Assembly (NCBI RefSeq): GCF_021272345.1
Contig: NZ_JAJSDQ010000003.1
Coordinates: 248,001 to 312,000 of the forward strand
DNA from: Ornithinimicrobium sediminis
Lineage (GTDB): Bacteria > Actinomycetota > Actinomycetes > Actinomycetales > Dermatophilaceae
Direction of reading: 5' to 3'
Length of the DNA stretch: 64,000 nucleotides
Part shown: positions 34,052 to 63,202 of the stretch, piece after piece
How the letters are laid out: the number at the start of each line of letters is the position of its first letter
How positions within the stretch are numbered: the stretch's first letter is position 1
The notes under the pieces: model-generated
The model's database searches: none
Told to the model about the DNA's origin: nothing
What the model saw: only the letters and a program-made list of their open reading frames with translations
Translations under genes and position numbers: made by a program

Positions 34052-36238
34052 GTGCGGGTGGCAGCGGAGACGATCGCGGCGGGACCGGCGCCCGTCCGGG
34101 TGCTCGCGCTGGCCAGGGCCGCCGAGGACCTGCCGCAGGTGGCGCCGTGGGGAGCCGAGGTCACCTGGTGCACCCTCCTCGCGGGCGTGGGTGAGGCACC
34201 CCTGCCGGGCTGCCCGTATCCGGTGACCCGGGTGCGACCCGACCCGCCGGAGGGTGCGGGGGAGCGCTGGCGCGTCGGGGCGGCCCGGGTGAAGACCTCC
34301 GCGCTGGCCGCCCGGGCCGATGCGCCCGCCGAGTGGCTGTGGACCCTCAAGCGCAGCACCTGGCTGCGTCGCGAGGTGCGGCGTGCCGACGTGCTCTGGA
34401 GCCTCGACACGGACACCGACGCCGCGCTGCGCGCCGCGCCCGACCTGGCCGGTGGCACCGTCGTGGTCACCTCCTCGGAGGCCGACCGGGTGGCCCGGGC
34501 GCTGCGTGACCTCGCCGCCCTGCTGGAGGAGCTGGCGGGGGACCGGGCCGCCGCACCGGGTGGGCTCACGGACGGTCTGGCGGCCTGGCAGGCCACCGCG
34601 GCAGCCGTGGCCGCGGCCGGGGTGCCACCGGTGATCCTGCCGGTCGAACGGGCCGCCGAGGTCGCCCGCGGCCTGCTCTCCCGTGCCGGACGCCTGTCCG
34701 CCGCGACGGTCGTGAGCTCGGTGCTCGACGCGGTCCCGTGGGCGTCCGCCCCGCGGGGCGTGTCCGGGCTGGCCGCCCAGCGGGCGGCGGCCGACCTCAC
34801 GCTGGCCCGGCCGAGCGGGGCCGAGCCCGACGAGGGTCTGCTCGCTGCGTCTGCGGACGCCGCCCTGGACGGGGCCGACGACGCCCTGGAGTCCGGTGAC
34901 GGTGCCCTGGCCCTGGCACGGCTCGGGGACGCGATGGCCCTGCTCTTCCACCGTGAGCGCCACGCCGAGGTGCCGCGTTCCGCGCTGGCGGAGGACCCGG
35001 GGTCCTACCTGCGCTCCCTGCGACGCAGCCGCACGCTCCGGGCCCTGCTGCACGCCGAGCCGGTCAGCCGCCGGCCCCGCCTGGTGCAGGACCGGGACCT
35101 GCGGGTCCTCGTGGTGACGGGCAGCTACGGCAGCTTCCACGCGCCGGTGGTGCAGGCCCTCGCCGGCGCAGCGGAGGTCAGGGTCGCCGACCACGCCGAC
35201 ACGGACCCGGTGCTGTCACGCAAGCTGATGGACACCGAGGTCCTGCCGCACCTGGCCGCCCTCGTCGCCGAGTGCGGTGGGCAGCACCTCTCCGGAGTGC
35301 CGGCTCCGGACCGTCAGGGGATGCAGACCCTGCGGCGGGTGCGCGCCGACGTGCGCTGGGCCGACGTCGTGGTGAGCGACTGGGCCGACCGCAGCACCGT
35401 GTGGGTGTCCCACCTGTGCCCTCCCGACGTGCGCCTCGTCGTCCGCGTGCACGCTCTCGACGCTCTCGACCCGTGGCTGCACCTCGTGCGGTGGGAGGCC
35501 GTCGAGCAGGTCGTCGTCGTGAGCGAGCCGATGCGGAGCCTGGTGACCGACATCCTCACGACGGGGGGTGTCGACGTGCCGGTCACCGTGCTGCCCAACC
35601 TCGTGCGCCTCGAAGCGCTGGACACCGACAAGGACGACACGGCACGCACCACGCTGGGCATGGTGGGGTGGGGACGCAAGGTGAAGGACCCCCTGTGGGC
35701 GCTGGACCTGCTCGAACGGGACCCCTCATGGCACCTGGTGCTCGTCGGCAGCGACTTCCGGGACGTGCCCGCGCAGCACCCGGCCGCGGCCTACGTGCAG
35801 CGGTTCCGGGCCCGGGCCGCCGAGCCGCACCTGCGCGAGCGTGTGCACGTCGTCGGCTTCACCGCTGACGTGGCCGAGCCGCTGCGCCGCATCGGGGTGA
35901 TCCTGTCCACGAGCGTGCGGGAGTCGTGGCACCTGGGCCTCGTGGAGGGGGCGATGTCGGGGGCGGTCCCCGTGGTGCGCAACTGGCCGCTGCTCGCGTC
36001 CCGGGGCGGCGCACGTGCGCTCTTCCCCGACGAGTGGGTGGTCGACGACGTCGACGAGGCGGAGGCCAGGGTGCGGGCGGTCACCGACCCCTCCCGCTGG
36101 CCGCAGGAGAGGGCACGCGCCAGGGCGGCGGCGGTCGGGCTGTTCGACCCCGAGCAGGTCGGCCGGGCCTACCGTGAGCTCGTGCTGGGCGGGCCCGAGC
36201 GGGCCGCCGGAGCGCCAGGGCCACCGCTGCAGGCGTGA
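34052..36238 (+). CDS. Glycosyltransferase with GT4-like C-terminal domain
   Basis: A 728-residue protein. Residues 1-~340 are Ala/Arg-rich and helical, with no family I recognise. From residue ~350 (RDLRVLVVTGSYGSFHAPVVQ) it has a two-lobe GT-B fold: a first Rossmann lobe with VVVSDWADRSTVWVSHLCPPDVRLVVRVH, and a second lobe with MVGWGRKVKDPLWALDLLERD, LVLVGSDF, and the donor-site-like ESWHLGLVEGAMSGAVPVVRNW, in which the family EX7E glutamates fall in SVRESWHLGLVEG. The sugar donor is unknown. It is the first gene of the glycan locus and overlaps the next gene by GTGA. Confidence 0.75.
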   Translation: MRVAAETIAAGPAPVRVLALARAAEDLPQVAPWGAEVTWCTLLAGVGEAPLPGCPYPVTRVRPDPPEGAGERWRVGAARVKTSALAARADAPAEWLWTLKRSTWLRREVRRADVLWSLDTDTDAALRAAPDLAGGTVVVTSSEADRVARALRDLAALLEELAGDRAAAPGGLTDGLAAWQATAAAVAAAGVPPVILPVERAAEVARGLLSRAGRLSAATVVSSVLDAVPWASAPRGVSGLAAQRAAADLTLARPSGAEPDEGLLAASADAALDGADDALESGDGALALARLGDAMALLFHRERHAEVPRSALAEDPGSYLRSLRRSRTLRALLHAEPVSRRPRLVQDRDLRVLVVTGSYGSFHAPVVQALAGAAEVRVADHADTDPVLSRKLMDTEVLPHLAALVAECGGQHLSGVPAPDRQGMQTLRRVRADVRWADVVVSDWADRSTVWVSHLCPPDVRLVVRVHALDALDPWLHLVRWEAVEQVVVVSEPMRSLVTDILTTGGVDVPVTVLPNLVRLEALDTDKDDTARTTLGMVGWGRKVKDPLWALDLLERDPSWHLVLVGSDFRDVPAQHPAAAYVQRFRARAAEPHLRERVHVVGFTADVAEPLRRIGVILSTSVRESWHLGLVEGAMSGAVPVVRNWPLLASRGGARALFPDEWVVDDVDEAEARVRAVTDPSRWPQERARARAAAVGLFDPEQVGRAYRELVLGGPERAAGAPGPPLQA

Positions 36239-38442
36239 GACCATGGTCCACTGTGGCTGGAGTAGTTGGTGACACCGGGGCGCAGTCCCGTTTCCGACCT
36301 GACATCGAGGGGCTGCGCGCCGTCGCCGTCCTGTTCGTCCTGCTCTACCACGCCGGGCTGCCGGGCCTCAGCGGCGGCTTCGTCGGCGTCGACATCTTCT
36401 TCGTCGTCTCCGGCTTCGTCATCACCTCCCAGCTGCTGCGTGAGCTGGAGCGCACCGGCACCGTCGACCTCCCCCAGTTCTACGGGCGGCGGGCCAAACG
36501 GCTGCTGCCGGCCGCCGCGCTGGTGCTCGTGGTCACCGCGGTCGGCACCTGGCTGCTCGCCCCGCGGGTGCAGTGGTCCAGCATCGCCGGCGACCTGGTG
36601 GGGGCGTCGCTGTATGTCGTGAACTGGGTCTTCGTGGGCCGCTCGGTCGACTACCTCGCCGAGGACGTCGAGCCCTCGCCGGTGCTGCACTTCTGGTCGC
36701 TGGCGATCGAGGAGCAGTTCTACATCATCTGGCCCCTGCTGATCCTGGGGCTGGTCTGGCTGGCCACCCGTCGTTCCCGCCACCTGGCCCCGACGGCGCT
36801 GCGCTCGACGCTGGCCCTCGGCCTGACGGCGGTCGTGGTCCTCCCCTCTCTCGCGTGGTCGATCTGGTACACCGCCACCAGCCCCCAGCAGGCCTTCTTC
36901 ACCACCACGACGAGGCTCTGGGAGCTCGGCCTCGGCGCCCTGGTGGCGCTCGGCGCCGGCCTGTGGCTGCGGATGCCCCGGCCCTGGGCCCTGGCGGTGG
37001 CGTGGGCGGGGCTGGCGGCCATCCTGCTGGCGGGTCTGGTCCAGTCGGGCCAGACGCCGTGGCCGGGCAGTGCCGCCCTGCTGCCGACGCTCGGGGCTGC
37101 AGCCGTCATCGCCGGTGGCTTCGCTGCCGGCCCGCGCGGCCCGGAGACCCTGCTGGGGCTGCGTGGTGCGGTGTGGGTCGGTGGGCTCTCCTACTCGCTC
37201 TACCTGTGGCACTGGCCCCTGTTGCGGATGGTCGAGTGGCAGTTCGGGCAGATCTCGACCATGGTCGGCCTGCTGGTCGTCACCGCGTCGGTGGTCCCGG
37301 CCTGGCTGTCCTACCGGTTCGTCGAGCACCCCATCCGCTACTCCCCGGCGCTCAACCGCTCGCCGAAGGTGGCACTGTCCGTGGGCGCCAACCTGACGCT
37401 GGTCTCCCTCGTCGCCGCCCTCGTGCTCTCGCAGGTCGCCTACCGGGCTGCCGCTCCGGGCGAGGCCGGGGGGACCGTGACCGGCAACCTCGTCGTCGAG
37501 GAGCCGGAGGCCACGGACGGCGGGCCGGGGGAGGACCCGTCACCACCGGAGGACGAGGCCGGGGGCGCGGACGAGCCGGGGACCGCGGACGAGCCGGAGC
37601 CGCGCGGGCCCGAGCCTCCGGAGCGGACGAGCACGGACGACCCGCCCATCTACGAGACCATCACTCCCGACCCCCTGGCCGCCACCGAGGACGTGCCCCG
37701 GTTCTACGACGAGGGGTGCCAGGTCACCGTCGACGAGGGCCAGGTCACGTCGTGCCCGGCGGGCGACCCGGACGGCGACGTGCTGGTCTACGTGATCGGC
37801 GACTCCAAGATCGGGCAGTGGGTGCCGGCGATCGAGGAGATCGCGCTGGCCAACAGCTGGCGGGTCGTCATCCACACGAAGTCGGCCTGCGCGTTCACCG
37901 ACGTCATGACGACCGTGGGAGGCGAGCCCTACGAGCAGTGCCGTGACTGGGGCGAGGAGGTGATGGCCGAGCTGCGTGCGGAGGAGCCCGACGTCGTCAT
38001 CACCGGCGGGCTGCGCGGCGAGGCCCTGGCGGAGGACGGCACCACGAGCCGGGAGGCGCTCGTCGAGGGCTATGCCCGCTACTGGAGCGAGCTCGAGGAG
38101 CAGGGCACCCGGGTCATCGCGATCGCCGACAACCCGCAGCCCGCGGACCCGCCGGTGTACGAGTGTGTCGACGAGCACCGGGACGACCACCTGGAGCAGT
38201 GCAGCTGGGACTACCGTGACGGCTCCGGGTCGGAGGCGCTGCGGCTCGCCGCCGACCAGGTCGACGGCGTCCGCTTCGTGGACATGAACCCCTGGGTGTG
38301 TCCGGGCGAGCTGTGCGTCGGTGTCTGGCGCAACGTGCTGACCTACCGGCAGGGCTCCCACATCACCGCGACCTTCGCGCTGGCCCTCGCCGAGCCGCTC
38401 GCCGAGCACATCGTCCCGCTCGTGGGCCCGCCCGCGCGCTAG
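36235..38442 (+). CDS. Membrane acyltransferase-3 with C-terminal SGNH domain (O-acetyltransferase, OafA/PatA-like)
   Basis: A 735-residue protein. The N-terminal ~400 residues form about 10 helices with the acyltransferase-3 signatures RPDIEGLRAVAVLFVLLYHAG, GGFVGVDIFFVVSGFVIT and SLAIEEQFYIIWP. An acidic Pro/Glu linker (~410-470) leads to an extracytoplasmic SGNH hydrolase-like domain with the nucleophile VIGDSK and the C-terminal His in RQGSHITATFA. Such proteins move acetyl or succinyl groups across the membrane onto cell-surface polysaccharide. It starts with a GTG overlapping the previous stop and ends in a CTAG shared with the convergent gene's stop. Confidence 0.88.
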   Translation: MRPWSTVAGVVGDTGAQSRFRPDIEGLRAVAVLFVLLYHAGLPGLSGGFVGVDIFFVVSGFVITSQLLRELERTGTVDLPQFYGRRAKRLLPAAALVLVVTAVGTWLLAPRVQWSSIAGDLVGASLYVVNWVFVGRSVDYLAEDVEPSPVLHFWSLAIEEQFYIIWPLLILGLVWLATRRSRHLAPTALRSTLALGLTAVVVLPSLAWSIWYTATSPQQAFFTTTTRLWELGLGALVALGAGLWLRMPRPWALAVAWAGLAAILLAGLVQSGQTPWPGSAALLPTLGAAAVIAGGFAAGPRGPETLLGLRGAVWVGGLSYSLYLWHWPLLRMVEWQFGQISTMVGLLVVTASVVPAWLSYRFVEHPIRYSPALNRSPKVALSVGANLTLVSLVAALVLSQVAYRAAAPGEAGGTVTGNLVVEEPEATDGGPGEDPSPPEDEAGGADEPGTADEPEPRGPEPPERTSTDDPPIYETITPDPLAATEDVPRFYDEGCQVTVDEGQVTSCPAGDPDGDVLVYVIGDSKIGQWVPAIEEIALANSWRVVIHTKSACAFTDVMTTVGGEPYEQCRDWGEEVMAELRAEEPDVVITGGLRGEALAEDGTTSREALVEGYARYWSELEEQGTRVIAIADNPQPADPPVYECVDEHRDDHLEQCSWDYRDGSGSEALRLAADQVDGVRFVDMNPWVCPGELCVGVWRNVLTYRQGSHITATFALALAEPLAEHIVPLVGPPAR

Positions 38443-40433
38443 GGTGCGGAGGTCTCCTGGACCGGCAGGCCCGGCACGGCCTCGCGCACCTGCGCACGCT
38501 CGTCCTCGGTGAGCCCCGGAGCGAAGGCCCAGTGTGGCCGGACCCCCCACCAGTCCGCGCAGACGTCGGCGGTCCCCAGCAGGTCCAGCGGCAGCAGCGA
38601 CCGGTCGGGAGCCACGTGCTCGGGCGCCAGGCGCACCTCGACGCGGTCGGCGCTCACCCGGCACGGCTGCCCGGCGACGGTGGAGAGGACGGCCGGGTCG
38701 ACGACGACCATGCGCTCCACGTGCACCGGCTCGACCCGGGACAGGGGGCGTAGGTGCGGGTGCCGCTGGATGATGTCGAACCACGGCTTGGCCATCCGCG
38801 GCCGACGGGTGGGGTGCACCCAGGGGGGCTCGAGGTGCCACACCCCGACCACTGCGGCGCCGGGCGGGCGCTGCTCGAAGAGCTCACGCAGGGCGCGGGC
38901 GTGCCGCGAGGGACGGGCCGTGGAGAAGTTGCCCACATACGCGACGTCCAGGTGGGTGGGGGTATGGCGCTCGGCGGCCAGCCCGCGCACGAAGGTCGCG
39001 GGCACCGGGAAGGGCAGCGCGTGCAGCTCCTCGCGCGACACACCCAGCGGGCGACCGGCGTCGGCTCGCTCCTGCAGCTCGCGGTGCCAGGCCAGGAACG
39101 CCCCCCGGAAGGTCAGGCGGTCGGGGGCGAACCAGGAGAACGTGAAGTCGCCCCGCGACAGGGACCCGGCCCGCAGCCGGGTCACCGCGAGCGGGGTCCC
39201 CGTGTCGGCGATCGCGCCGGCCAGGGTCTCCACCCGCTCGGCGAACTCCGAGTCGGCCCCCTTGCGCACCGGGACGAAGCCACCGTAGTGCTCCAGCACC
39301 TGCCGGCGGACCAGGAGGGACGAGGCGTTGTCACGGACGGGCTGGTAGCCCAGCCACTGGTGGGTCAGGTCGTCCTTGGCCCGCACGGCCTGGCTGCGGC
39401 TCATGGGTGCCGTGGTGCCGGTCAGCGCCTCCACCTGGTGCTCGATGCGGCTGGGGTGCGACCAGTCGTCGGCGTCCTGGAACGTGACCAGACTTCCGGT
39501 GGACTGCGCGATGGCGGCCTCCCGGGCCAGGTAGCTGCCGCCGTTGCGCTCCATCGTGAGCACCCGCGCCCGGGGGTCGAGCGACGCGGCCTCCGCGAAC
39601 AGCTCGCGGTAGTCCGGGCCGGACGCGTCGTCGACGATGACGATCTCCAGGTCCGCCCAGCTCTGCCGGCTGATCGAGCGGACCGACGTGAGCAGGCCGC
39701 GGTCGGGCCGGAAGCACGGCATGACCACGGTGACCAGGGCCCCCCCGGTCGAGGCCGGCCTCGTGCCCTGCGCGTCCAGCCGGTCGAACAGCGGCTGCCC
39801 CCGGTGCTCCTGGTCCCGCAGGGCCAGCGGCGAGAGCCCCTCGTCGACGAAGGGCAGCGACAGCAGCCGGGGCCACCGGTCGGCGTCCTGCGCGGTGGCC
39901 GGGCGGTCGGCAGGTCGCTCGGCGAACGGGTTGGCCAGGTCGGTCTCCAGGTAGTGCCGGACGGACGGCGGGAGGTCCAGGCTCGGCAGGAGGTGCTCGA
40001 GGGCGGCGTGCCGCCCGGAGAGGAAGAGAGCCTGGCCGGCCACCACGTGGTGCTCAGGAACGAGCTGCCGACCGGCGCCGGCGGCCCAGAGGTGCTCGTA
40101 GGCCAGGGCGGCGCCCAGCAGCTCGTCGGTGGTGCGACCGGTGCCGGCCCACACCATCGCGGTGGCCGCCAGGGCACCGCATCGGCGAGGTCCCAGGGAC
40201 ACCGGGGACGGGCCGTGCTGCAGCACCTCGCGCAGCAGCGTGCCGGCGTCGTCGCGCCCGTTCGTGGCGGCGCGGGCCAGGGCCTCCAGCACCGCCGGCG
40301 ACCGCGTGCGCAGCGCCTGGTGGGCCAGGCCCTCGGGGTCGAACCCGACACGGGCGTGCAGCAGCCGCCAGGTGTGCCAGGCCTCGGGGGCCGCCGCGCC
40401 TCCGGCACCGACCGCGGTGCTCGGGGTGGTCAT
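38439..40433 (-). CDS. GT2 family glycosyltransferase with helical N-terminal domain (paralogue A)
   Basis: A 664-residue protein. Residues 1-~190 are a helical domain with repeat-like segments. The GT-A domain begins near residue 234 (VTVVMPCFRPDRGLLTSVRSI) with IVIVDDASGP near 260 and the metal site QDADDWSHP near 316. Conserved downstream motifs SLSRGDFTFSW and VDVAYVGNF-like segments recur in the next gene. The last ~200 residues are unassigned. The ATG overlaps the stop of the upstream paralogue (ATGA), so the two are co-translated. It probably adds a sugar from a UDP donor; specificity is unknown. Confidence 0.82.
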   Translation of the reverse strand: MTTPSTAVGAGGAAAPEAWHTWRLLHARVGFDPEGLAHQALRTRSPAVLEALARAATNGRDDAGTLLREVLQHGPSPVSLGPRRCGALAATAMVWAGTGRTTDELLGAALAYEHLWAAGAGRQLVPEHHVVAGQALFLSGRHAALEHLLPSLDLPPSVRHYLETDLANPFAERPADRPATAQDADRWPRLLSLPFVDEGLSPLALRDQEHRGQPLFDRLDAQGTRPASTGGALVTVVMPCFRPDRGLLTSVRSISRQSWADLEIVIVDDASGPDYRELFAEAASLDPRARVLTMERNGGSYLAREAAIAQSTGSLVTFQDADDWSHPSRIEHQVEALTGTTAPMSRSQAVRAKDDLTHQWLGYQPVRDNASSLLVRRQVLEHYGGFVPVRKGADSEFAERVETLAGAIADTGTPLAVTRLRAGSLSRGDFTFSWFAPDRLTFRGAFLAWHRELQERADAGRPLGVSREELHALPFPVPATFVRGLAAERHTPTHLDVAYVGNFSTARPSRHARALRELFEQRPPGAAVVGVWHLEPPWVHPTRRPRMAKPWFDIIQRHPHLRPLSRVEPVHVERMVVVDPAVLSTVAGQPCRVSADRVEVRLAPEHVAPDRSLLPLDLLGTADVCADWWGVRPHWAFAPGLTEDERAQVREAVPGLPVQETSAP

Positions 40434-42358
40434 GCGTGCCTTGCGGCCAGCAGACCCGGCTCGACCGGCAGGTCGGGCAGCGCGTCCCGCAGACGGGACT
40501 CCCCTGCGGGGGTGTCCGGCCCGGTCACCCAGGTCGGGCGCAGCCCCCACCAGTCGTGGCACGCGTCGGAGACACCGAGCAGGTCCAGCGGCAGCCCGCT
40601 CGGCGAGGGGGCCAGGGCGGCCTCGTCGAGCACGACCTCGACCCGGTCGGCGTGCACCGTCGTCGTCTGCGCGGTCGAGAGCAGCAGGGCGGACGGGTCG
40701 AGCACGACCACCGTGCCCACCCGGCAGTGCTGTGTGCGGGTGACCAGGTGCAGGTCCGGGCTCGCCACCACCAGGTCGAACCAGCCGGCGTGCATCTCGG
40801 GCCGGGCACGGGTCAGCGCGCGCGGTCGCTCGACGTGCCACAGCCCCACGCGGCGTCCGGAGAGCCGGTCCAGCAGGCGGCGCCGCGAGTGTCGACCACC
40901 GCTGGCGGGCGGGTCGCTGAAGTCACCCAGCAGACACACGTCGACCTCGGTGGGCAGGGTCACCGCCTGGGGGATCCCCCGCCCGAAGGCCTGCGGCACC
41001 TCGGGCGTCGCGTCGGGCGGGACGTCCGTCGCACCCGACGCGCGCAGCGAGCGGTGCCACGCGCGGTAGGTGCCACGGAAGGCGATGCGGTCGGGATGGG
41101 ACCACTGGTAGCTGAAGTCGCCCCGCGACAGGCTGCCGGTGCGCAGCCGGGTGACGGCCAGGGGCGTTCGCGTGTCCGCGACCTTCGCGAGCAGGTGCTG
41201 CACCCGCTCGGCATACTCCGAGTCCGCGCTCTTGCGGATCGGCAGGAAGCTCCCGCAGGTCTCCAGCACCTCACGGCGGACCATGAGCGAGGAGGCGTTG
41301 GCGCGCAGCGCGCGGTAGCCGAACCACTGGTGGGTGAGGTCGTCCTTGGCGCGCACCGCCTCCGACCGGCTGGCCGGAGCCTCCGGGTGCTCGTGCAGCA
41401 GCGCCACCTGCTGCTCCATGCGCTCCGGGTGGCTCCAGTCGTCGGCGTCCTGCGTGGTCACCAGCGCGCCGGTGCTGGCCGCGACGGCGGCCCGCCGGGC
41501 CAGGTAGCTGCCGCCGTTCTGCTCGAGGGTGAGCACCCGTGCCCGCGGGTCCAGGTCCGCCGCCGCCGCGATGAGCTCGCGGTGCTCCGGCCCGGACGCG
41601 TCGTCGACCAGCACGATCTCGAGGTCGGCATAGGTCTGGCCGGCGATGGAGGCCACCGAGGTGAACAGGCCCTCGTCGGGGCGGAAGCACGGGATGACCA
41701 CGGTGACCAGCGGGCCGTGCACCCGCCCGGGTGCCACCGTGCCACGGAGGTGGTCGAAGAGGTGCGGCGAGTGCCCCTGCGGGCCCACCGCCAGGGGCGA
41801 CAGCCCGTGCTCGACGAAGCGGGCCGAGAGCAGCGCCTCCCACCGTCGGTGCGCCTGCTGGTCCTGGGCACCGGGCCCGGGGTGCGCGAGGTCGGCCTCG
41901 AGGTAGTGGCGCACGTCGTCGGGCATCTTGCCCAGCATCGGCAGGAGCTGCCGGAGGGCGTCCTGCTCCCCTGCGAGGTAGAGACCCTGTCCGGCCGCGT
42001 GGTGGTGCACCGGGTGCAGCGCGGCCAGCTCGCCGGTGGCTGCGAGCCAGCGGTAGAGGGCCGCGCCGGCACGCAGCGGCGCCTCGTCACCGCGACCGGA
42101 CCAGAGCAGGGCCAGGCCGGCAGCGACCGGCGGGGCGGTCACCGCCTCGCCCAGGGCGGCGGCCAGGCCGGCGGAGCCGGTGCCGTCGGCCGCGAAGCCA
42201 CCGAGCCGCTCGAGCAGCTCGCTCGCGGTGAGCAGGCCACCGGTGGCTGCCAGGCCCAGGGCCTCGGCAACCACCGCAGAGGTGGTGCGCAGGCCCAGGT
42301 GGGCGACCGCCTCCGGCCGGGCGGCAGCGGCCACCGCGAGGTCGGCTGAGGTCCACAT
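40430..42358 (-). CDS. GT2 family glycosyltransferase with helical N-terminal domain (paralogue B)
   Basis: A 642-residue protein starting at an ATG with GGGAG upstream (a GTG at 42385 is an alternative). It is a clear paralogue of the next gene: both have LLSARFVEHGLSPLA-type linkers, VTVVIPCFRPDEGLFTSVASI, IVLVDDASGPEHREL, TQDADDWSHPERMEQQV and SLSRGDFSYQWSHPDR. The arrangement suggests tandem duplication within the locus. Residues 1-~185 are helical. Predicted soluble, acting at the cytoplasmic face. The donor and acceptor are unknown. Confidence 0.82.
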   Translation of the reverse strand: MWTSADLAVAAAARPEAVAHLGLRTTSAVVAEALGLAATGGLLTASELLERLGGFAADGTGSAGLAAALGEAVTAPPVAAGLALLWSGRGDEAPLRAGAALYRWLAATGELAALHPVHHHAAGQGLYLAGEQDALRQLLPMLGKMPDDVRHYLEADLAHPGPGAQDQQAHRRWEALLSARFVEHGLSPLAVGPQGHSPHLFDHLRGTVAPGRVHGPLVTVVIPCFRPDEGLFTSVASIAGQTYADLEIVLVDDASGPEHRELIAAAADLDPRARVLTLEQNGGSYLARRAAVAASTGALVTTQDADDWSHPERMEQQVALLHEHPEAPASRSEAVRAKDDLTHQWFGYRALRANASSLMVRREVLETCGSFLPIRKSADSEYAERVQHLLAKVADTRTPLAVTRLRTGSLSRGDFSYQWSHPDRIAFRGTYRAWHRSLRASGATDVPPDATPEVPQAFGRGIPQAVTLPTEVDVCLLGDFSDPPASGGRHSRRRLLDRLSGRRVGLWHVERPRALTRARPEMHAGWFDLVVASPDLHLVTRTQHCRVGTVVVLDPSALLLSTAQTTTVHADRVEVVLDEAALAPSPSGLPLDLLGVSDACHDWWGLRPTWVTGPDTPAGESRLRDALPDLPVEPGLLAARHA

Positions 42359-42549
42359 GCCGGGCTCTCCCGCTCTCGGATGCACCGGGAGCAGGTGCAG
42401 GGATGCGTCGATCGTCCTCTCCTCGTGGCCGTGACGTGCGGGTGTGGTCGCGCGGACGCAGCGAGCCTACGCGCTACAGTGAGCACCGTCATCGTGCGCG
42501 GGCCAGGGGCCCCGGCGCGTCGTCCTCCCCGCCTGAAAGGTCCACCGCG

Positions 42550-42927
42550 TTGCGATCTCGTCTCGTTCTCGTCCTGGGTGCCCTCGCCGCCCTCGTCCTG
42601 AGTGCGGTGATCGTCGTCGGTGTCGCCTTCGAGCAGTGGGTGCTCGCCGCGGCGGGCGCTGCGGCCCTGCTGAGTGCCTGTCTGCTGGTCCAGCTCGACT
42701 CGTGGCGCCGGGCCCGGTCCCTGCGCCGCTTCCTGCGCGACGAGCTGCGCCGCGGCCCCGCCGTGGGCAGCACGGACCGCTCCACGGTCAGCGAGAGCGA
42801 CGTCGTCGGGGCGGTGCGCCTGATGCAGGCGCAGTACACCGGTCGTCTCGACCGTATGCAGGCCGCTCTCGACCGTGCGCTCGCCGAGTCCGCCGCGACC
42901 CGGCACGCCGGCCACGACGAGCGGTGA
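42550..42927 (+). CDS. Small two-helix membrane protein, function unknown
   Basis: A TTG at 42550 preceded by GAAAGG gives 125 residues. Two hydrophobic helices come first (LVLVLGALAALVLSAVIVVGVAF and WVLAAAGAAALLSACLLVQL). A basic segment WRRARSLRRFLRDELRRG and an amphipathic helix follow (RLMQAQYTGRLDRMQAALDRAL). I recognise no family. It overlaps the next glycosyltransferase gene by GTGA, so the two are probably translated together; it may anchor or partner the glycosyltransferase. A TACAGT -10-like element lies near 42473. Confidence 0.6.
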   Translation: MRSRLVLVLGALAALVLSAVIVVGVAFEQWVLAAAGAAALLSACLLVQLDSWRRARSLRRFLRDELRRGPAVGSTDRSTVSESDVVGAVRLMQAQYTGRLDRMQAALDRALAESAATRHAGHDER

Positions 42928-47050: not shown

Positions 47051-47054
47051 CCAC

Positions 47055-48629: not shown

Positions 48630-48656
48630 CGCAGGCTCCGGCCGGCCCGCGCGAGC

Positions 48657-51598: not shown

Positions 51599-51765
51599 CA
51601 CAGGTGGGTCCTCGAAGGGTCGACGGCGCGCGCGGGTCAGGCTCAGAATGCCACGTCCGCGCCCTGCCGCGGCGAGCCCCTGCCGCCCCACCACGGTGGT
51701 CGGGGCTGCTGCGGCGTGGCACGATCACGGGGTCGTGAGGATCCCTCGAGGGAAGGGGCGAGCTG

Positions 51766-53517: not shown

Positions 53518-53582
53518 CAGACTGTGCAAGGCGGGCGCGACAAGGGTCGCCGCCCCGACACCGACGCAAGGAGCCGAACATC

Positions 53583-54845
53583 GTGGCTGTGGACGCCGTC
53601 ATCATCGGGCTGGGCTATGTCGGCCTGCCGTTGGCCGAGGAGGCCACCCGCGCAGGCATGACCGTGCTGGGCTACGACATCAACCAGGGCGTCGTGGACT
53701 CGCTGAACGCGGGTGTCTCGCATGTGGACGACCTGTCGGACGACGACATCGCGCAGATGGTGGCGGGGGGCTTCCGGGCGACCACGGACGAGTCCGAGAT
53801 CGACGGGGCGGCGGTGGCGGTGATCTGTGTGCCGACGCCGTTGTCGGTGGACGGTGGGCCGGACCTGCGGGCGGTGGAGAGCGCGGTCGACACGGTCGCC
53901 CGACATCTGCACCCGGGGATGCTGGTGGTGCTGGAGTCCACGACCTACCCGGGGACGACCGACGAGGTCGTGCGGCCCCGGCTGGAGGCCGGTGGTCTGG
54001 TGGCCGGTCAGGACTTCCACCTGGCGTTCTCCCCGGAGCGGATCGACCCGGGCAACGAGAGGTTCGGTGCCAAGAACACCCCGAAGGTGGTCGGTGGGCA
54101 CACCCCGGCCTGTGGTGAGGCGGCGGCCGGGTTCTACGGGCGGTTCGTGGACAGTGTCGTGCGGGCCAAGGGCACCCGGGAGGCCGAGACGGCCAAGCTG
54201 CTGGAGAACACCTACCGGCACATCAACATCGCGCTGGTCAACGAGATGACCCGGTTCTGCCACGAGCTGGGCATCGACCTGTGGGACGTGATCGCCGCGG
54301 CCAAGACCAAGCCGTTCGGCTTCCAGGCGTTCTACCCAGGGCCGGGTGTCGGGGGGCACTGCATCCCGATCGACCCCAACTACCTCTCGCACAACGTGCG
54401 TGCCCGTCTGGGCTACCCGTTCCGGTTCGTGGAGCTGGCGCAGGAGATCAACTCCGGCATGCCTGCGTATGTGGTGAACCGGGCCCAGGACATCCTGAAC
54501 GAGATCGGCAAGCCGCTGAAGGGCTCGACCGTGCTGCTGCTGGGGGTCACCTACAAGCCGAACATCGCCGACCAGCGTGAGAGCCCGGCGGTGCCGCTGG
54601 CCAAGCAGCTGCTGGCCAAGGGTGCCGTGGTGCGCTACCACGACCCCTACGTCACGCAGTGGGGCGCGCTGGGCGAGGCCGTCGCACGGGTCGAGGACCC
54701 CCTGGCCGGTGTGGCCGGGGCCGACCTGACGATCCTGGTGCAGAACCACCGTGACTACGACGTGGACGCCCTCGCCGGTGCCGGCCAGGCCTTCTTCGAC
54801 ACCCGTGGTGTGGCCACGGAGAGTGAGAAGGTCTCCCGCCTGTGA
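53583..54845 (+). CDS. Nucleotide-sugar dehydrogenase (UDP-ManNAc or UDP-GlcNAc 6-dehydrogenase)
   Basis: The GTG at 53583 follows AAGGAG. The 420-residue product has the NAD-binding VIIGLGYVGLPLAEEATRAG, VLESTTYPGTTDEVV, LAFSPERIDPGN, KLLENTYRHINIALVNEM, the catalytic Cys in GPGVGGHCIPIDPNYL, and LGVTYKPNIADQRESP. The SPERIDPGN and ALVNEM motifs are those of the WbpA/WecC branch that oxidises N-acetylhexosamine nucleotides, not of UDP-glucose dehydrogenase. Next to wecB, UDP-ManNAc is the likely substrate. It overlaps the ABC permease gene (GTGA). Codon use is even more GC3-biased and repetitive than in its neighbours, perhaps reflecting recent spread. Confidence 0.9.
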   Translation: MAVDAVIIGLGYVGLPLAEEATRAGMTVLGYDINQGVVDSLNAGVSHVDDLSDDDIAQMVAGGFRATTDESEIDGAAVAVICVPTPLSVDGGPDLRAVESAVDTVARHLHPGMLVVLESTTYPGTTDEVVRPRLEAGGLVAGQDFHLAFSPERIDPGNERFGAKNTPKVVGGHTPACGEAAAGFYGRFVDSVVRAKGTREAETAKLLENTYRHINIALVNEMTRFCHELGIDLWDVIAAAKTKPFGFQAFYPGPGVGGHCIPIDPNYLSHNVRARLGYPFRFVELAQEINSGMPAYVVNRAQDILNEIGKPLKGSTVLLLGVTYKPNIADQRESPAVPLAKQLLAKGAVVRYHDPYVTQWGALGEAVARVEDPLAGVAGADLTILVQNHRDYDVDALAGAGQAFFDTRGVATESEKVSRL

Positions 54846-55738
54846 CCAGCGGTGGCCCCGACCAGCAGGGCTCCCTGCCGGGACTGAGCTCCGCCGAGGC
54901 GGCTGCGCTCGCGCAGCGCCACGGCATGGAGCAGGTCGGGGTCCGTCCACCCCTGGGGACCTACCTGCGTCAGCTGTGGCGCCACCGCAGCTTCCTGCTC
55001 ACCATGTCCTCGGCCGACTTCGTGGCGCGGCACCAGCAGAACTACCTCGGCCAGGTCTGGGCCGTGCTCAACCCGCTGCTCCTCGGCGCCGCCTACTTCC
55101 TCATCTTCGGCCTGCTGCTGAACGTCACCCGCGGCGTCGACAACTACGTCGCGTTCCTGCTGATCGGCCTGTTCAGCTTCATCTTCATCTCCGCCGGCAT
55201 GAACTACGGGGCCAAGTCGCTCATCGGCAACCTCGGGCTCGTGCGTGCGCTGCGCTTCCCGCGCGTCGTGCTGCCCATCTCGGTCACCGCGACCGAGCTC
55301 TTCGCCGCGCTCCCGGCATACGCGGTGGCGCTGGTGGTGGTGCTGCTCACGGGGGAGCGGCCCACCTGGGCCTGGCTGCTCTACCCGGTCGCCATCGGCA
55401 TCACCTTCCTGGTGACCTGTGGGCTCGGCATGCTCGCCGCCCGCATCGTGTATGTCGTGCGCGACGCGAGCAACCTGGTGCCGCTCATCACCCGCATGCT
55501 GCGCTATGTCTCGGGGGTCTTCTTCGTGATCCCGGCCTACGCCGGCAACGAGGTCGTGAACATCGTCCTGTCCTACCAGCCCGTCGCGGTCTGTCTGACG
55601 ATGCTGCGGCAGTGCCTGATGGAGGAGTTCCCCCCCACGCCGGAGGTCTGGCTCGTCGCCGCCGGGTGGGGTGTGCTGCTCTCGGTCACCGGGCTGCTGC
55701 TGTTCTGGCGGGGAGAGGCCACCTATGGTCGACAGTGA
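54842..55738 (+). CDS. ABC-2 type polysaccharide/teichoic acid export permease
   Basis: A 298-residue membrane protein with six helices. A cytoplasmic N-terminus of ~45 residues holds [35 protein letters not shown], the typical entry of TagG/Wzm permeases. It forms the channel that moves undecaprenyl-linked polymer across the membrane together with the ATPase encoded next. GTG start overlaps the dehydrogenase stop. It overlaps the ATPase start by 14 bp. Confidence 0.92.
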
Positions 55739-56672
55739 CGTCCCCTCCGTCATCGCCTCGCACGTCGACATCCGCTACACCGTCTTCGGTGCCGGGTCCG
55801 GCCGTTCGCTCGACCAGGGCAACAAGCTGGTCCGGATGCTCAACCGCTCCACGCAGCGGGTGGGCACCCGTGAGGTGCACGCGGTCAAGGACGTGTCGTT
55901 CGTGGCCTACAAGGGCGAGTCCATCGGGCTGATCGGGCGCAACGGGTCGGGCAAGTCGACCCTTCTGCGCTCGGTCGCCGGGCTCATCCCGCCCTCCAGC
56001 GGCGAGATCTACCTCAACGGCAAGGCGGCCCTGCTCGGCGTCAACGCGGTGCTGATGCGCAAGCTCAGCGGAGCCCGCAACGTCATGATCGGGGGGCAGG
56101 CCCTGGGCCTGTCCCGGCGGGAGGTGCGGGAGAAGTACGACGAGATCGTCGAGTTCGCCGACATCGGCGACTTCATCGACCTGCCGATGAGCGCCTACTC
56201 CTCCGGGATGGCGGCCCGCCTGCGCTTCGCCATCTCCACCGCCGCCGTCCCCGACATCCTCGTCGTGGACGAGGCCCTGGCCACCGGCGACCAGGAGTTC
56301 AAGGCGCGGGCCACCGAGCGGATCCAGCAGATCCGCCAGTCGGCCGGCACGGTCTTCGTGGTGAGCCACTCGGCCAAGCAGATCGAGACGCTGTGCACGC
56401 GCGCCCTGTGGATGGAGGGCGGTCACCTCATCATGGACGGTCCGCCCGCGGAGGTCGGTGCGGCCTACGTGGAGAAGTACCCGCCCCGCAGGACCGCGGC
56501 CAAGAAGACGGCTGCCAAGAAGACGACTGCCAAGAAGACGGCGGCGAAGGAGACCACGTCCGAGGAGACGGCGTCCGACAAGGCGGCGCCCGACACGACG
56601 CCCGAGGAGCCGACGGCCGGCGAGCCGGCCACGAAGGAGAAGCCTCAGGCCGGGGCGCAGGACCCCGCCTGA
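55725..56672 (+). CDS. ABC polysaccharide exporter ATPase (TagH/Wzt-like)
   Basis: A 315-residue protein starting at an ATG with GGGAGAGG upstream. It has Walker [15 protein letters not shown] near residue 70, the TagH-like lack of a strict LSGGQ (signature [17 protein letters not shown]) and Walker [14 protein letters not shown]. The ATPase core ends near residue 250. The last ~60 residues are a Lys/Ala/Thr repeat ([15 protein letters not shown]) turning Glu/Pro-rich, which is not the folded carbohydrate-binding domain of Wzt. It energises export of the polymer with the permease upstream. Confidence 0.92.
56499..56546. repeat. Tandem 15-bp coding repeats in the ABC ATPase tail
   Basis: GCCAAGAAGACGNNT-type 15-bp units are repeated three times and a decayed fourth follows, encoding [10 protein letters not shown]. 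The tail resembles histone H1-like or low-complexity Lys-rich sequence. Confidence 0.65.
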
Positions 56673-56673
56673 C

Positions 56674-57981
56674 TCAGCTGCGGCCGAGCCCCAGGTAGGT
56701 CCAGCCGGCAGCCTTGTAGGCCTCCCGGTCCAGGCAGTTGCGACCGTCGATGACGACCCGTTGCGCCACCTTGCCGCCCAGGGTCTCCGGGTCGAGCTCC
56801 CGGAACTCCGGCCACTCCGTCAGGTGCAGGACCGCGTCGGCCCCGTGCACGCACTCCTCGACCGAGTCGCTGTAGTCGAGCGTCGGGAAGATCTTGGCGG
56901 CGTTGCCCATCGCCTTGGGGTCGTAGACGCTGACCGAGGCGCCGGCCAGGTGCAGCTGGCCGGCGATGGACAGCGCAGGGGAGTCGCGCACGTCGTCGCT
57001 GTTGGGTTTGAACGCCGCACCGAGCACGGCGATGCGACGACCGACCAGGCCGCCGACCTGCCCGCGCACCAGCTCCACGACATGCTCGCGGCGGCGCAGG
57101 TTGATGGCGTCGACCTCGGCCAGGAAGGCCACGGAGGCCGCCGCGCCGAGCTCACCGGCGCGGGCGGAGAAGGCGCGGATGTCCTTGGGCAGGCAGCCGC
57201 CCCCGAAGCCGACGCCGGCGTTGAGGAACTTGCGGCCGATGCGGTCGTCGTAGCCGATCGCGTCGGCCAGCAGCGTCACGTCGGCTCCGGTGATCTCGCA
57301 GATCTCCGACATGGCGTTGATGAACGAGATCTTGGTGGCCAGGAAGGAGTTGGCCGCCACCTTGACCAGCTCGGCGGTCGGCAGGTCCGTGACGACGACC
57401 GGTGTCCGGTCCTCCTCGATCGTGCGGGCGTAGACCTCGCGCAGGATCTGCTCGGCGCCCGCGCTCGGCACCCCGAGCACAAGGCGGTCGGGGTGCAGCG
57501 TGTCCTGCACGGCGAAGCCCTCGCGCAGGAACTCGGGGTTCCACGCCAGCTCCACGTTCACGCTGTCGGGGGTGAGGGTCTCGATGCGCTCGGCGAGCCG
57601 CTCCGCGGTGCCCACCGGCACGGTGGACTTGCCGACGACGAGCGAGCCGTCCTTGAGGTGCGGGATGATCGCGTCGACCGCCGCGTCGACATACGTCATG
57701 TCGGCGGCGAGGGAGCTGCCCTGCTGCGGTGTGCCCACACACACGAAGTGGACGTCCGCGTCGGCGACCTCGGCGAAGTCGGTGGTGAAGCGCAGCCGGC
57801 CCCCGACGTGCTTCTCCAGCAGCGGCTCGAACTCCGGTTCGTAGAAGGGCATCGTCGCCGCCTGCAGCGAGGCGATCTTGGCCTTGTCGACGTCGACGCC
57901 GACCACCTCGAAGCCGAGCTCGGCCATGCCGGCCGCGTGCACGGCGCCCAGATAGCCCGTGCCGATGACGGAGATCCGCAT
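56674..57981 (-). CDS. ugd: UDP-glucose 6-dehydrogenase
   Basis: A 435-residue enzyme starting [20 protein letters not shown] at an ATG preceded by AAGGGTTGAGAGA. The [32 protein letters not shown], catalytic-Cys [14 protein letters not shown] and [15 protein letters not shown] motifs are those of UDP-glucose dehydrogenase. It makes UDP-glucuronic acid, a second acidic precursor for the locus beside UDP-ManNAcA. It is convergent with the ABC ATPase gene, with a 1-bp gap between stop codons. The upstream in-frame extension overlaps the acyltransferase gene on the same strand and is not used. Confidence 0.93.
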
Positions 57982-58099
57982 TCTCTCAACCCTTCGACGT
58001 CCACGTGTCCGGGACGACGGTACCCCGCGCCGGTGCGTCACCGGCAGTCCGTCAGCGCCCGAGGCGGCGGAGTGTGAGCGGTCTGACAGGGCCCGGTGC

Positions 58100-60136
58100 T
58101 CAGTCCAGTGCCGGGACGCGCCCGACGAGCACCGGTGCCAGGAGGGTGCTGTAGGTGCGCGAGATGTGGCTGTGGTCGTGGTACACGATGACGTCGCCGA
58201 CCACCGCAGGGCAGGTGCCCTCGGCGCAGAAGGAGGACGTGAGGTCCGCGAGGGTGACGTTGTCGGGCAGGTCGGGCAGCTCGGACGCGGGGTCCACGGC
58301 GGCCAGGGTCTGCTCCAGCGGCGTGTCGCAGGCCCGGCTCGTGGCTCCGCGGACGGCGAGGCACTCCACGACGTCGCGGCCCGGGAAAGGGGTGTCCCGC
58401 AGCGCCAGCACGGCGATGTCGTGCCCGCCCAGCTCATCCCAGGTGCGCACGAAGGAGGGTGGCACGTGCTCGGGCTCGCCCATGGCCACGGTCGAGGTGG
58501 TGACCACCAGGTCGGGCCGCTCGGCGATGATCCGGGCGGTGACGTCCTGGCTCCAGGCGATGCAGGAGCCGACCTCCGCGGAGGCTCCGGTGCGGTCAGG
58601 GTCGTGGTGGGCGCCGGTGCGGCAGGAGCTCTTGGTGGCGACGACCAGGCGCCAGCCGTGCTGCTCGGCGACGGCCGCCAGCGCCGGCTGCCAGTGCACC
58701 GCGTGACTGCTCCCGACCAGGAACATCGTGCGGTCGGCCGCCTCGTCGCCGAACGTGCAGGTCTCGACGGCCGGCTCGCGCAGGGTCTGGTGGCACCCCA
58801 GGTCGTAGGCCGGTGACCGGTCCTGCGCGGCGAAGACGATGCCCGGCGCCGGGTCGTCGGTGTTGTCGGCCCGCAGGTCCTCCAGCCGGGCGCCCTCCCC
58901 CGCGGAGCCCGGCCCGGCGCTCGGACCGGTGGGCACCGGACGTGGTGCCGTGGCGTCGGATCGGCTCACCTCGCCGGCAGCCGCCGCCCCGGTGGCGACG
59001 AGCACCGCGGCGGCGGTGCCGGCCAGGGTCACCGCCCACGGCCGGCGGCGGTCCAGCGACGTGCTGCGCAGGGGTGTCTCCACCCAGGCCGTCGAGAGGA
59101 ACGACAGCGCGACCGACGCGGCGATGATGAGCACGCCGGGGAGGAACCCCGCCCGGTCCTGCTGGGTCAGCAGCAGGTAGAACACCAGCAGCGGCCAGTG
59201 CCACAGGTAGAGGGCGTAGGACACGGCGCCCAGCCGCACCAGCGGCCTGCTCGAGAGCAGCGAGCTCGCCGACCAGCGTGCCGGGGTGTGGCCGGCCACC
59301 AGGATGAGCACGGCTCCGAGCACCGGCCACAGGGCGACCCAGCCGGGGAAGGATGTGCCCACCGACAGCACCATCCCGCAGGAGACGATGAGCAGGAGAC
59401 CCACCCACCCCAGCACGAACGACAGACGACGGGACAGCTCCGGCAGGGACGCTGCGAAGAGGGCCACCAGGCCGCCGGCACCGAACTCCCACAGACGGGC
59501 ACCGGTGTGGAAGTAGGCGACCGGCTGGTCCGCGGCGGTGAACCACACCGAGAAGGCGAAGGAGGCGCCGACCGAGAGCACGAGCAGCTGCGCCAGCCGT
59601 CGACGGAAGCCTGCCGCCGAGGACACGGTGAGGACGAGCAGGAAGAGCGCGAGCCAGGCCAGGTAGAACTGTCCCTGGATCGACATCGCCCAGTAGTGCT
59701 GGACCGGGCTGTTGGTGGCGTCGCGCTGCAGGTAGTCGACCGACTGTGCCGCCAGCAGCCAGTTCTCGGCGTAGAGGGCGGAGCCGGCGATCTCGAGCAG
59801 CACGTCCTGACGCCGGGTCACCGGCACCCAGACCATCGTGGCCGCCGCGACCGCGACCAGCACGAGGAGCGCGTTGGGCAGCAGCCGCTTGAGCAGCTGG
59901 CCGAGGTAGCGGCCGACCTGCACGCGGCCGGTCCGCTCCACGTGCCCCAGGAGGGAGGTGGTGACCATGAACCCTGCGATGACGAAGAAGACGTCGACGC
60001 CGCCGGAGACCCGCCCGAACCAGACGTGGTAGACGGCGACGAGCAGCGCCGCCACAGCGCGGAGCCCCTCGATCTCCCAGCGGAACCGGCGCGGGGTCCC
60101 TCCCTGCTCAGCCACGTCTGCGCTCCACGTCCTCAC
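58100..60136 (-). CDS. Membrane acyltransferase-3 with C-terminal SGNH domain (second copy)
   Basis: A 678-residue protein beginning at a GTG, with another GTG eight codons later. The acyltransferase-3 core has RWEIEGLRAVAALLVAVYHVWFG and SGGVDVFFVIAGFMVTTSLL. The SIQGQFYLAW motif has Q-G-Q where the copy at 36235 has E-E-Q. The C-terminal SGNH domain has the nucleophile LVGSSHAVHW and a C-terminal Asp/His pair in VYHDHSHISRTY. The different motif variants suggest a different acyl group or acceptor from the first copy. It lies upstream of the UDP-glucose dehydrogenase gene, same direction. Confidence 0.87.
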   Translation of the reverse strand: MRTWSADVAEQGGTPRRFRWEIEGLRAVAALLVAVYHVWFGRVSGGVDVFFVIAGFMVTTSLLGHVERTGRVQVGRYLGQLLKRLLPNALLVLVAVAAATMVWVPVTRRQDVLLEIAGSALYAENWLLAAQSVDYLQRDATNSPVQHYWAMSIQGQFYLAWLALFLLVLTVSSAAGFRRRLAQLLVLSVGASFAFSVWFTAADQPVAYFHTGARLWEFGAGGLVALFAASLPELSRRLSFVLGWVGLLLIVSCGMVLSVGTSFPGWVALWPVLGAVLILVAGHTPARWSASSLLSSRPLVRLGAVSYALYLWHWPLLVFYLLLTQQDRAGFLPGVLIIAASVALSFLSTAWVETPLRSTSLDRRRPWAVTLAGTAAAVLVATGAAAAGEVSRSDATAPRPVPTGPSAGPGSAGEGARLEDLRADNTDDPAPGIVFAAQDRSPAYDLGCHQTLREPAVETCTFGDEAADRTMFLVGSSHAVHWQPALAAVAEQHGWRLVVATKSSCRTGAHHDPDRTGASAEVGSCIAWSQDVTARIIAERPDLVVTTSTVAMGEPEHVPPSFVRTWDELGGHDIAVLALRDTPFPGRDVVECLAVRGATSRACDTPLEQTLAAVDPASELPDLPDNVTLADLTSSFCAEGTCPAVVGDVIVYHDHSHISRTYSTLLAPVLVGRVPALD

Positions 60137-61881: not shown

Positions 61882-62169
61882 ATGCGTCAGTACGAACTGA
61901 TGATGATCCTCGACCCCGAGATGGACGAGCGCAACCTTCAGCCCGCGCTGGAGAAGATGCTCGCCGTCGTCGGCAAGGACGGCGGGTCCGTCGACTCCAT
62001 GGACATCTGGGGTCGTCGCCGGCTGGCCTACGAGATCAAGAAGCAGGCCGAGGGCATCTACGCCGTCGTCACCATGACCGCCGAGTCGGCCACCGCCAAG
62101 GAGCTCGACCGACAGCTCGGGCTCAACGAGCAGGTGCTCCGCACCAAGCTTCTGCGCCTCGACGTCTGA
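61882..62169 (+). CDS. rpsF: 30S ribosomal protein bS6
   Basis: A 95-residue protein beginning [18 protein letters not shown], with the [19 protein letters not shown] segment typical of bS6. The ATG at 61882 has a near-perfect AAGGAGGTG. bS6 forms a complex with bS18 on 16S rRNA. It heads the rpsF-ssb-rpsR-rplI operon, conserved in actinobacteria. Confidence 0.97.
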
Positions 62170-62215
62170 CGTCCCGGCGCCCGGATCAGACCCCGACCCA
62201 AGCGAAGGACTGAGC

Positions 62216-62836: not shown

Positions 62837-62934
62837 TCCTGGAGACCTGAGCCGGCACCCGCCGGTTCCACCTTTTCGAGAACCACCCCATCCCGAGTGT
62901 GATGCTCGGGCTCTCACAGAAGGAGAGCACCACG

Positions 62935-63171: not shown

Positions 63172-63202
63172 GCGACTCGACAGCAGACACCGAGAGGACA
63201 CC

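Follow-up and report, generated by a model that had tools for sequence, protein, structure and literature searches.

The window analyzed here, a 64-kb stretch of the Ornithinimicrobium sediminis genome (G000:C10:248001-312000; host genome 3.53 Mb on 16 contigs, 99.99% complete), holds at positions 34052-60115 a locus of 16 genes that, on balance, we read as making an acidic wall polymer of the teichuronic acid type, exported by an ATP-binding cassette (ABC) transporter, amide-capped on its carboxylates by the TupA-like ligase g32 and the asparagine-synthetase-like protein g33, and then acylated outside the cell. Genes were called by codon bias and scanned for Pfam and NCBIfam domains, which confirmed the set named in a preliminary description of the window: wecB, two dehydrogenases, a TupA-like and an asparagine-synthase-like protein, two AT3-SGNH acyltransferases and an ABC-2 exporter. 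Where that description counted seven glycosyltransferase-type proteins, we found six. The genes provide what a teichuronic-type locus needs, namely uronic sugar nucleotides (g35 with g37, and g40), six glycosyltransferase proteins and an ABC-2 exporter, and this content supports the earlier proposal of an acidic, ABC-exported polymer acylated outside the cell. Chance is excluded by the gene content together with its recurrence across the genus. The genes and their borders are as follows.

ino1, 32762..33835, plus strand: myo-inositol-1-phosphate synthase (PF01658, 122 bits); left border, outside the pathway
g26, 34052..36238, plus strand: GT-B type glycosyltransferase (PF13692, 25.2 bits, below the cut-off of 27)
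g27, 36235..38442 (start 36235 or 36253), plus strand: AT3-SGNH O-acyltransferase (PF01757, 97 bits; PF19040, 78 bits)
g28, 38439..40433, minus strand: GT2 glycosyltransferase with long N- and C-terminal extensions (PF00535, 80 bits, residues 235-365)
g29, 40430..42358, minus strand: GT2 glycosyltransferase, paralogue of g28 (PF00535, 78 bits)
g30, 42403..42927 (start 42403 or 42607), plus strand: small protein with a hydrophobic stretch seen by eye; no Pfam match
g31, 42924..45890, plus strand: GT2 (PF00535, 92 bits) with a C-terminal GT-B type domain (PF13692, 19 bits, below cut-off)
g32, 45887..47050, plus strand: TupA-like ATP-grasp ligase with a long N-terminal helix (PF14305, 60.9 bits, cut-off 25)
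g33, 47055..48629, minus strand: asparagine-synthetase-like protein without the glutaminase Cys (loop, profile, fold model)
g34, 48657..50465, minus strand: bifunctional CgeB-like GT-B and GT2 glycosyltransferase (PF13524, 62 bits; PF00535, 32 bits)
g35, 50510..51598, minus strand: WecB-type UDP-N-acetylglucosamine (UDP-GlcNAc) 2-epimerase (TIGR00236, 289 bits, cut-off 210)
g36, 51775..53517, plus strand: GT4 glycosyltransferase (PF13692, 93 bits)
g37, 53583..54845, plus strand: UDP-N-acetylmannosamine (UDP-ManNAc)-type dehydrogenase (TIGR03026, 420 bits, cut-off 190)
g38, 54842..55738, plus strand: ABC-2 permease, Wzm type (PF01061, 32.5 bits, cut-off 26.9)
g39, 55725..56672, plus strand: ABC ATPase, Wzt/TagH type (PF00005, 68.5 bits)
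g40, 56674..57981, minus strand: UDP-glucose 6-dehydrogenase, TuaD type (TIGR03026, 430 bits, cut-off 190)
g41, 58100..60115 (start 60136 possible), minus strand: AT3-SGNH O-acyltransferase (PF19040, 96 bits; PF01757, 75 bits)
rpsF-ssb-rpsR-rplI, 61882..63649, plus strand: right border, outside the pathway (gene calls and translations)

From the gene content, predicted folds, retained motifs, synteny and linkage observed here we infer a pathway, reading its sugars, carboxylate targets, amines, order of steps and wall attachment as follows. UDP-N-acetylmannosaminuronic acid (UDP-ManNAcA) would be supplied by g35 and g37 and UDP-glucuronic acid (UDP-GlcA) by g40, and the six glycosyltransferase proteins would assemble the chain on a lipid carrier whose priming enzyme is encoded outside the locus. 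In the cytoplasm, carboxylates would be converted to amides by two unrelated ATP-dependent enzymes: g32, through acyl-phosphate chemistry, most likely on a GlcA-type residue and possibly in cooperation with g31, whose gene it overlaps, as in the fused Campylobacter protein Cj1438; and g33, through acyl-adenylate chemistry, most likely on a ManNAcA-type residue together with g34 and g35. Because its glutaminase Cys is absent, g33 probably uses free ammonia or an amine as its direct substrate. Export would be by g38-g39, with O-acylation outside the cell by the two AT3-SGNH proteins, and an LCP ligase encoded elsewhere would attach the polymer to the wall.

The SLTGGLDS loop of g33, weak NCBIfam matches, a profile match in the PDB and a confident fold model (AlphaFold2, pLDDT 88.7, pTM 0.90) together identify the protein; there was no Pfam match at E 0.01, and phmmer against PDB sequences gave no useful match. 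Its family is not named by the Pfam and NCBIfam models used. The marks of the asparagine-synthetase superfamily are present as a PP-loop of the form S-x-T-G-G-x-D-S and a predicted two-domain fold, for which the best Foldseek matches were beta-lactam synthetase (3.1e-16), TsnB9 (4.8e-15), carbapenam synthetase (1.1e-14) and AsnB (6.5e-10), all in rows of 12-18% identity. In an alignment of 23 of the 27 loci L003-L029 (A1; the window stands for L003, and L017, L020, L021 and L028 are out), the loop residues S287, T289, G291 and D293 are invariant in 23/23 rows, as are E396, E460, D475 and R487. The position of the glutaminase Cys1 is occupied by His in 17 rows, Cys in three and Gly in two, with one gap; residue 1 of the AsnB chain aligns with His35 of the g33 model, whose sole cysteine is C231, and members from other genera have Arg or His at this position where it is readable. 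A second alignment (A2) comprises 17 rows, L008 having been dropped as partly out of frame.

These features bear on three other accounts of g33. The protein may be an ammonia-dependent uronamide synthase that makes the WbpS/WbqG product (CO-NH2) by familiar chemistry, drawing its nitrogen from free ammonia or from a glutaminase encoded separately, a possibility that we take seriously while giving it clearly less weight. WbpS and WbqG amidate uronic acids: formation of the uronamide depends on WbpS (PGN_1234), and WbqG was shown to be essential to this activity as well (PMC7468200). The Bordetella b-Cool locus, whose glycan has two uronamides, encodes a putative asparagine synthase (PMC12407052); by Z score, moreover, AsnB and beta-lactam synthetase are level as matches to g33. 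On the other hand, the Cys position is not kept in the family, the E-values favor the beta-lactam and carbapenam synthetases, with TsnB9, and only 1 of 17 family members, not the g33 of the window, reaches the WbpS model TIGR03108 at E 1e-3.

It is very unlikely that g33 amidates peptidoglycan or another wall substrate in the manner of AsnH or LtsA and lies in the polymer locus by coincidence. The asparagine synthetase AsnH of Lactobacillus casei does respond to lysozyme-treated wall extract and is involved in peptidoglycan (PMC3885529), but AsnH and LtsA are reported to have glutaminase activity, whose Cys is absent from g33, and the gene follows wecB on the same strand in 10/25 genus loci and a glycosyltransferase gene in other genera. 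Nor is g33 likely to be a pseudoenzyme serving as scaffold or regulator of g34 and g35, even though in many relatives it is followed by a degenerate second domain copy, either fused to it or encoded separately, and the gene is dispensable in two genus genomes (G011, G027), since the ATP loop and the other residues are invariant throughout A1 and the loop is retained in 9/10 distant homologues whose frames were scanned. The second copy is seen as a degenerate asparagine-synthase-like half of g33 homologues of about 900 amino acids (L013, L015, L018, L019, L022 and others) and as a separate gene in other relatives; a fused TupA domain in these long homologues was rejected, as their C-terminal half had no ATP-grasp match. 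We consider g33 a probable amide synthetase for the aminouronic acid.

The companion ligase g32 is probably a uronate amide ligase. Its AlphaFold2 model (pLDDT 85.6) has an ATP-grasp fold with LysX/ArgX, Ddl and RimK as the closest solved folds; phmmer and profile searches against the PDB gave no useful match. TupA lies in line with g31 in 9/19 TupA-bearing relatives, as in the window, where the two genes overlap; our TupA alignment (A3) has 13 rows, the copies of G020 and G009 not having been gene-called. Amides are the probable outcome at the carboxylates, which keeps the earlier suggestion of conjugation or amidation, but its term 'amino-acylated' is too narrow, as the one TupA-like enzyme for which we found published chemistry, from Campylobacter, uses serinol-phosphate or ethanolamine-phosphate.

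The sugar carrying one of these carboxylates is likely ManNAcA, because g35 passes TIGR00236 and g37 has as its closest PDB chains 4r16, an archaeal UDP-ManNAc dehydrogenase, and Cap5O; g37 passes the subfamily model TIGR03026 and scores 235 bits with the WecC model PRK11064, whose cut-off of 459 it does not reach. We regard it as rather unlikely that the aminouronic acid is instead N-acetylglucosaminuronic acid (GlcNAcA) or a 2,3-diamino uronic acid, though several observations point that way: the PDB neighbors of g35 include UDP-GlcNAc3NAcA 2-epimerases (8sxv, 252 bits) alongside the UDP-GlcNAc epimerase 4neq (263 bits), a second locus of the genome has DegT and hexapeptide genes, and Streptomyces utr loci use ManNAc3NAcA (PMC13274773). 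However, no DegT aminotransferase or hexapeptide acetyltransferase is found among the window locus genes, the DegT matches of the genome lie on other contigs, and g37 scores 258 and 235 bits with UDP-ManNAc dehydrogenase models against 196 with TviB. That second hexosaminuronate locus (L158 and L159, G000:C13:60001-100000) encodes a WecB-like epimerase, a nucleotide-sugar dehydrogenase, a DegT aminotransferase and a hexapeptide protein. Extra genes of 375, 348 and 198 amino acids beside g37/g39 in relatives were considered as WbpE, WbpB and WbpD, but in scans of one example of each size the first two were glycosyltransferases and the third had no match, so we claim no diamino-uronate pathway for the locus. 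A WecB homologue (E 1e-30) occurs in 16/18 genus relatives searched, the two without it (G005, G009) being incomplete, and lies elsewhere in the genome of eight relatives that have no g35 in the fetched locus.

For the GlcA branch, the TuaD model scores g40 at 392 bits, below its cut-off of 700; other relatives have weak g40 matches of about 30% near rpsF, and in G024, the one relative scanned, the same end of the locus holds an E. coli-type UDP-glucose dehydrogenase (PRK15057 model, 572 bits). The role looks to have been filled by non-orthologous replacement, and a GlcA supply kept in this way looks functional rather than incidental. RmlA-, RmlB- and RmlC-like genes of the dTDP-rhamnose type, recognized by eye, lie inside the locus of G013 (L066:8090-11447), from which the repeat unit probably differs among species.

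Four neighboring pairs overlap by 4 bases (g28/g29, g30/g31, g31/g32, g37/g38), and g26/g27 would do so with g27 starting at its earlier GTG (36235), so that the GTGA/ATGA overlaps described before are real in the re-called coordinates. The six glycosyltransferase proteins carry eight glycosyltransferase domains, of which that of g26 and the C-terminal one of g31 score under the Pfam cut-off. Both Pfam domains of the acyltransferases are above cut-off in g27 and g41, which score 249 and 415 bits, respectively, with the SucT equivalog model NF058601, each below its cut-off of 1275. By eye, the SGNH domain of g27 has GDSK and QGSH where g41 has GSSH and DHSH, and g27 may lack the catalytic block V Asp. 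As the preliminary description stated, no PF02397 initiating phosphoglycosyltransferase and no LCP protein was called in the 64-kb window; both are encoded elsewhere in the genome, PF02397 at two sites on contig C7 and LCP proteins at three sites on contigs C9 and C11, and other contigs encode two PF00953 proteins.

The product could instead be a capsule or an exopolysaccharide released from the cell, a doubtful but reasonable alternative to a teichuronic acid linked to the wall, given that the locus has no LCP gene and that ABC-2 exporters also serve capsules. Against it stand the three LCP genes elsewhere in the genome, the ATPase g39, which scores best with teichoic-acid export models (178-189 bits with the TagH models, below the TagH cut-offs), and the richness of the genus in CWB2 wall-anchoring modules. 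We retain a wall-linked polymer as the favored product, and turn to how the locus is distributed.

In the Ornithinimicrobium/Serinicoccus genus the locus lies between ino1 and rpsF, and both borders, ino1 and rpsF-ssb-rpsR-rplI, adjoin it in relatives as they do here. The genes rpsF, ssb, rpsR and rplI are named from their sequences, and translations in the left part of the window read as dnaA, dnaN, yidC, parA and parB; positions 15962-19684 of the window encode one protein of 1240 amino acids with a MurJ flippase and a weak protein-kinase-like stretch. Of the 29 relatives fetched, 13 have both borders in reach, and all 13 carry g37 and g39 in the interval, with glycosyltransferases varying around this core. 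An orthologue of g37 at 81-86% identity occurs in 29/30 genus relatives, the exception (G019) being 75% complete. The match is in pieces in G003 and G009, and many other locus genes there (G003:C62, G009:C1) match in several pieces or frames, perhaps through errors in the draft sequences. Matches by tblastn to g26 were found in the regions of 22/29 relatives and to g30 in those of 25/29, beside g31.

Gene-content counts refer to 29 of the 30 genus relatives (G019 left out), of which G022, G005 and G018 have short contigs and G017 a split locus; L088, L094, L096 and L097 duplicate the records G135, G458, G169 and G323, each pair contributing a single count, and the named genus loci L076-L087 and L089-L091 (L080 named Oceanitalea) were not counted again. 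Among the 29, g33 occurs in 25, TupA in 19 and both in 16, with TupA but no g33 in three, g33 but no TupA in nine (two of them, G017 and G018, split or short) and neither in one, on a short contig. In G011 and G027, each a single contig, TupA is kept and g33 absent, and seven well-covered loci have g33 without TupA at the locus, the rest of those genomes not having been searched for TupA. Syntenic loci with g33 alone and with TupA alone show that the ligases can be separated, which refutes an obligatory joint pathway, as the preliminary description could be taken to propose, and nothing beyond that.

The core of the locus is its older part. Among seven genomes of other genera fetched around a g37 orthologue, g37-g38-g39 stand together in four (G041, G045, G038, G059), and in G058 g38-g39 lie about 5 kb from the g37 orthologue; in G036 and G042 no g38-g39 exporter lies beside it. 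Because the dehydrogenase-exporter core also occurs in other genera, the locus is best read as being of the teichuronic acid type. G038 also has g40, g35, g34, g36, g31, g30, g28, g26 and g27, with no g32 in the 40 kb fetched and no g33 in the genome. Of the two outcomes that were named beforehand as refuting the combined pathway, the one concerning syntenic loci of relatives was thus observed, each ligase being absent from some of them and a related genus having most of the locus and neither ligase.

Homologues of g33 are found in 25/30 genus relatives, 0/28 genomes of other genera of the family and 3/38 of the order (one strong), and the family in 7/394 genomes of the class, own included. 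A search of the phylum with a profile of the wider g33 family (A4) gave matches at E 1e-10 in 9/396 genomes, a count that includes our own; five of the nine scored close to that threshold, and the linked genes were in 0/3 neighborhoods fetched from that search. In the window the minus-strand order is g35 (wecB), g34, g33 with gaps of 44 and 27 bases; g35 adjoins g33 on the same strand, with at most 59 bases between matches, in the 10 genus loci mentioned above. The ligases g33 and TupA adjoin on opposite strands, at most 332 bases apart, in 9/25, tail to tail in three (G026, G003, G009), as in the window, and head to head in six. Outside the genus we compared 19 distinct loci, and a g34-like protein is encoded within the fetched stretch of 10. 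Isoptericola, Agrococcus and the alphaproteobacterium Aurantiacibacter have it at full length immediately upstream of g33; in the rest of the 10 it shows as a GT2-domain match, and one Jiangella also has it immediately upstream. Either g35 or g37 occurs in seven of the 19 and AT3-SGNH in six; seven have none of the linked genes, and these are remote (22-31% identity), some on short contigs.

Surface proteins offer a possible function for the polymer. The genome encodes 34 CWB2 modules in eleven groups of three and one single (e.g., G000:C9:41820-42671 and C10:356319-357179); at least one module occurs in 31/31 genus genomes searched and at least three in 30/31. In G008, G010 and G023 module matches occur between ino1 and rpsF; in G006 and G015, whose ino1 was out of reach, they stand next to the locus. 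Proteins of Clostridioides difficile are anchored through three CWB2 motifs on PSII, an anionic polymer (PMC4973711). Across 66 genomes outside the genus, CWB2 occurs in 8/14 with a g37 orthologue against 7/52 without (Fisher one-sided p 0.0017), and at least three modules occur in 6/14 against 6/52 (p 0.014), statistics that ignore phylogeny and use an orthologue threshold (at least 343 bits) set after seeing the list. Against it, six genomes with at least nine modules have no g37 at that threshold. The association is suggestive but weak, and that this polymer is the CWB2 ligand in the genus is our hypothesis. Within or beside the locus of G008 (L039:1126-8074), and similarly in G006, G010 and G015, a block lies between proteins of the same cluster (two in G008 with CWB2) and encodes small proteins, one of them rich in Cys and with a twin-arginine-like leader, together with a MauE-like protein (PF07291, from the single example scanned); it resembles a maturation set of the methylamine dehydrogenase type.

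We further propose, tentatively and as an unlikely but coherent extension, that g33 represents an undescribed, glutamine-independent, beta-lactam-synthetase-like family that joins an amine to the aminouronate carboxylate of surface glycans in Actinobacteria, Proteobacteria and perhaps Bacteroidota, acting with a TupA ligase on one Ornithinimicrobium polymer that would be a charge-tuned CWB2 ligand. If our main reading of the locus is right, wall acidity would be set by the amount of uronic acid and by two separate masking ligases, with consequences for cation binding, for the anchoring of autolysins and surface proteins and for phage or toxin recognition. It would also give a genetic handle on an asparagine-synthetase subfamily without the glutaminase Cys and a Gram-positive setting for the amide-ligase role of the Campylobacter TupA-like domain.

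Beta-lactam and carbapenam synthetases use the asparagine-synthetase fold to join a carboxylate to an amine. By Foldseek E-value, though not by Z score, at which AsnB is level, they are the closest solved folds to g33, and they share with it the absence of the glutaminase Cys, but they close the ring of a small molecule (lactam formation is known for this fold family; PMC13060819), whereas g33 lies in a glycan locus. Like g33, WbpS, WbqG and BB0880 are asparagine-synthetase superfamily members in uronic-acid glycan loci (PMC7468200, PMC12407052); unlike them, g33 has no glutaminase Cys and its family rarely matches TIGR03108. Campylobacter jejuni Cj1438, a GT2 fused to a TupA-like ATP-grasp domain, amidates glucuronate before the next sugar is added, its Cj1438C part attaching serinol-phosphate or ethanolamine-phosphate (PMC11800379). 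The pairing of a TupA-like ATP-grasp with a GT2 recalls g32/g31, though Cj1438 is a fused protein of a Gram-negative capsule, whereas g31 and g32 are overlapping genes. The Bacillus halodurans TupA shares the ATP-grasp family name, and its teichuronopeptide is likewise an acidic glucuronate polymer (PMC8153356); teichuronopeptide, however, contains poly-gamma-glutamate, and nothing at this locus points to polyglutamate.

The teichuronic acid of Micrococcus luteus (ManNAcA-Glc, TUAS) is likewise an acidic actinobacterial wall polymer based on UDP-ManNAcA; compared by description rather than by gene locus, it comes with no mention of an amide ligase or acyltransferase in the accessible part of the source (PMC3005890). 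The Streptomyces utrA-J genes also combine a uronic acid dehydrogenase, an epimerase, glycosyltransferases, O-acetyl groups and variable accessory genes, but their polymer is GalNAc-ManNAc3NAcA on wall teichoic acid, and a TupA-like or asparagine-synthase-like gene is not mentioned in the accessible text (PMC13274773). Because actinobacterial teichuronic-acid loci with variable accessory genes have thus been described (PMC13274773), the kind of locus is already known, as are the M. luteus ManNAcA polymer and uronic-acid amidation of the asparagine-synthetase type, and the earlier view that the combination is not a described system holds for the enzyme outfit, which differs. Our literature search found no g33/TupA combination in one wall-polymer locus. 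As far as searched, two things are new: a family that resembles beta-lactam synthetase, lacks the glutaminase Cys and is linked to aminouronate genes across more than one phylum, and the co-occurrence of a g33-type enzyme with a TupA-like ligase in a single wall-polymer locus.

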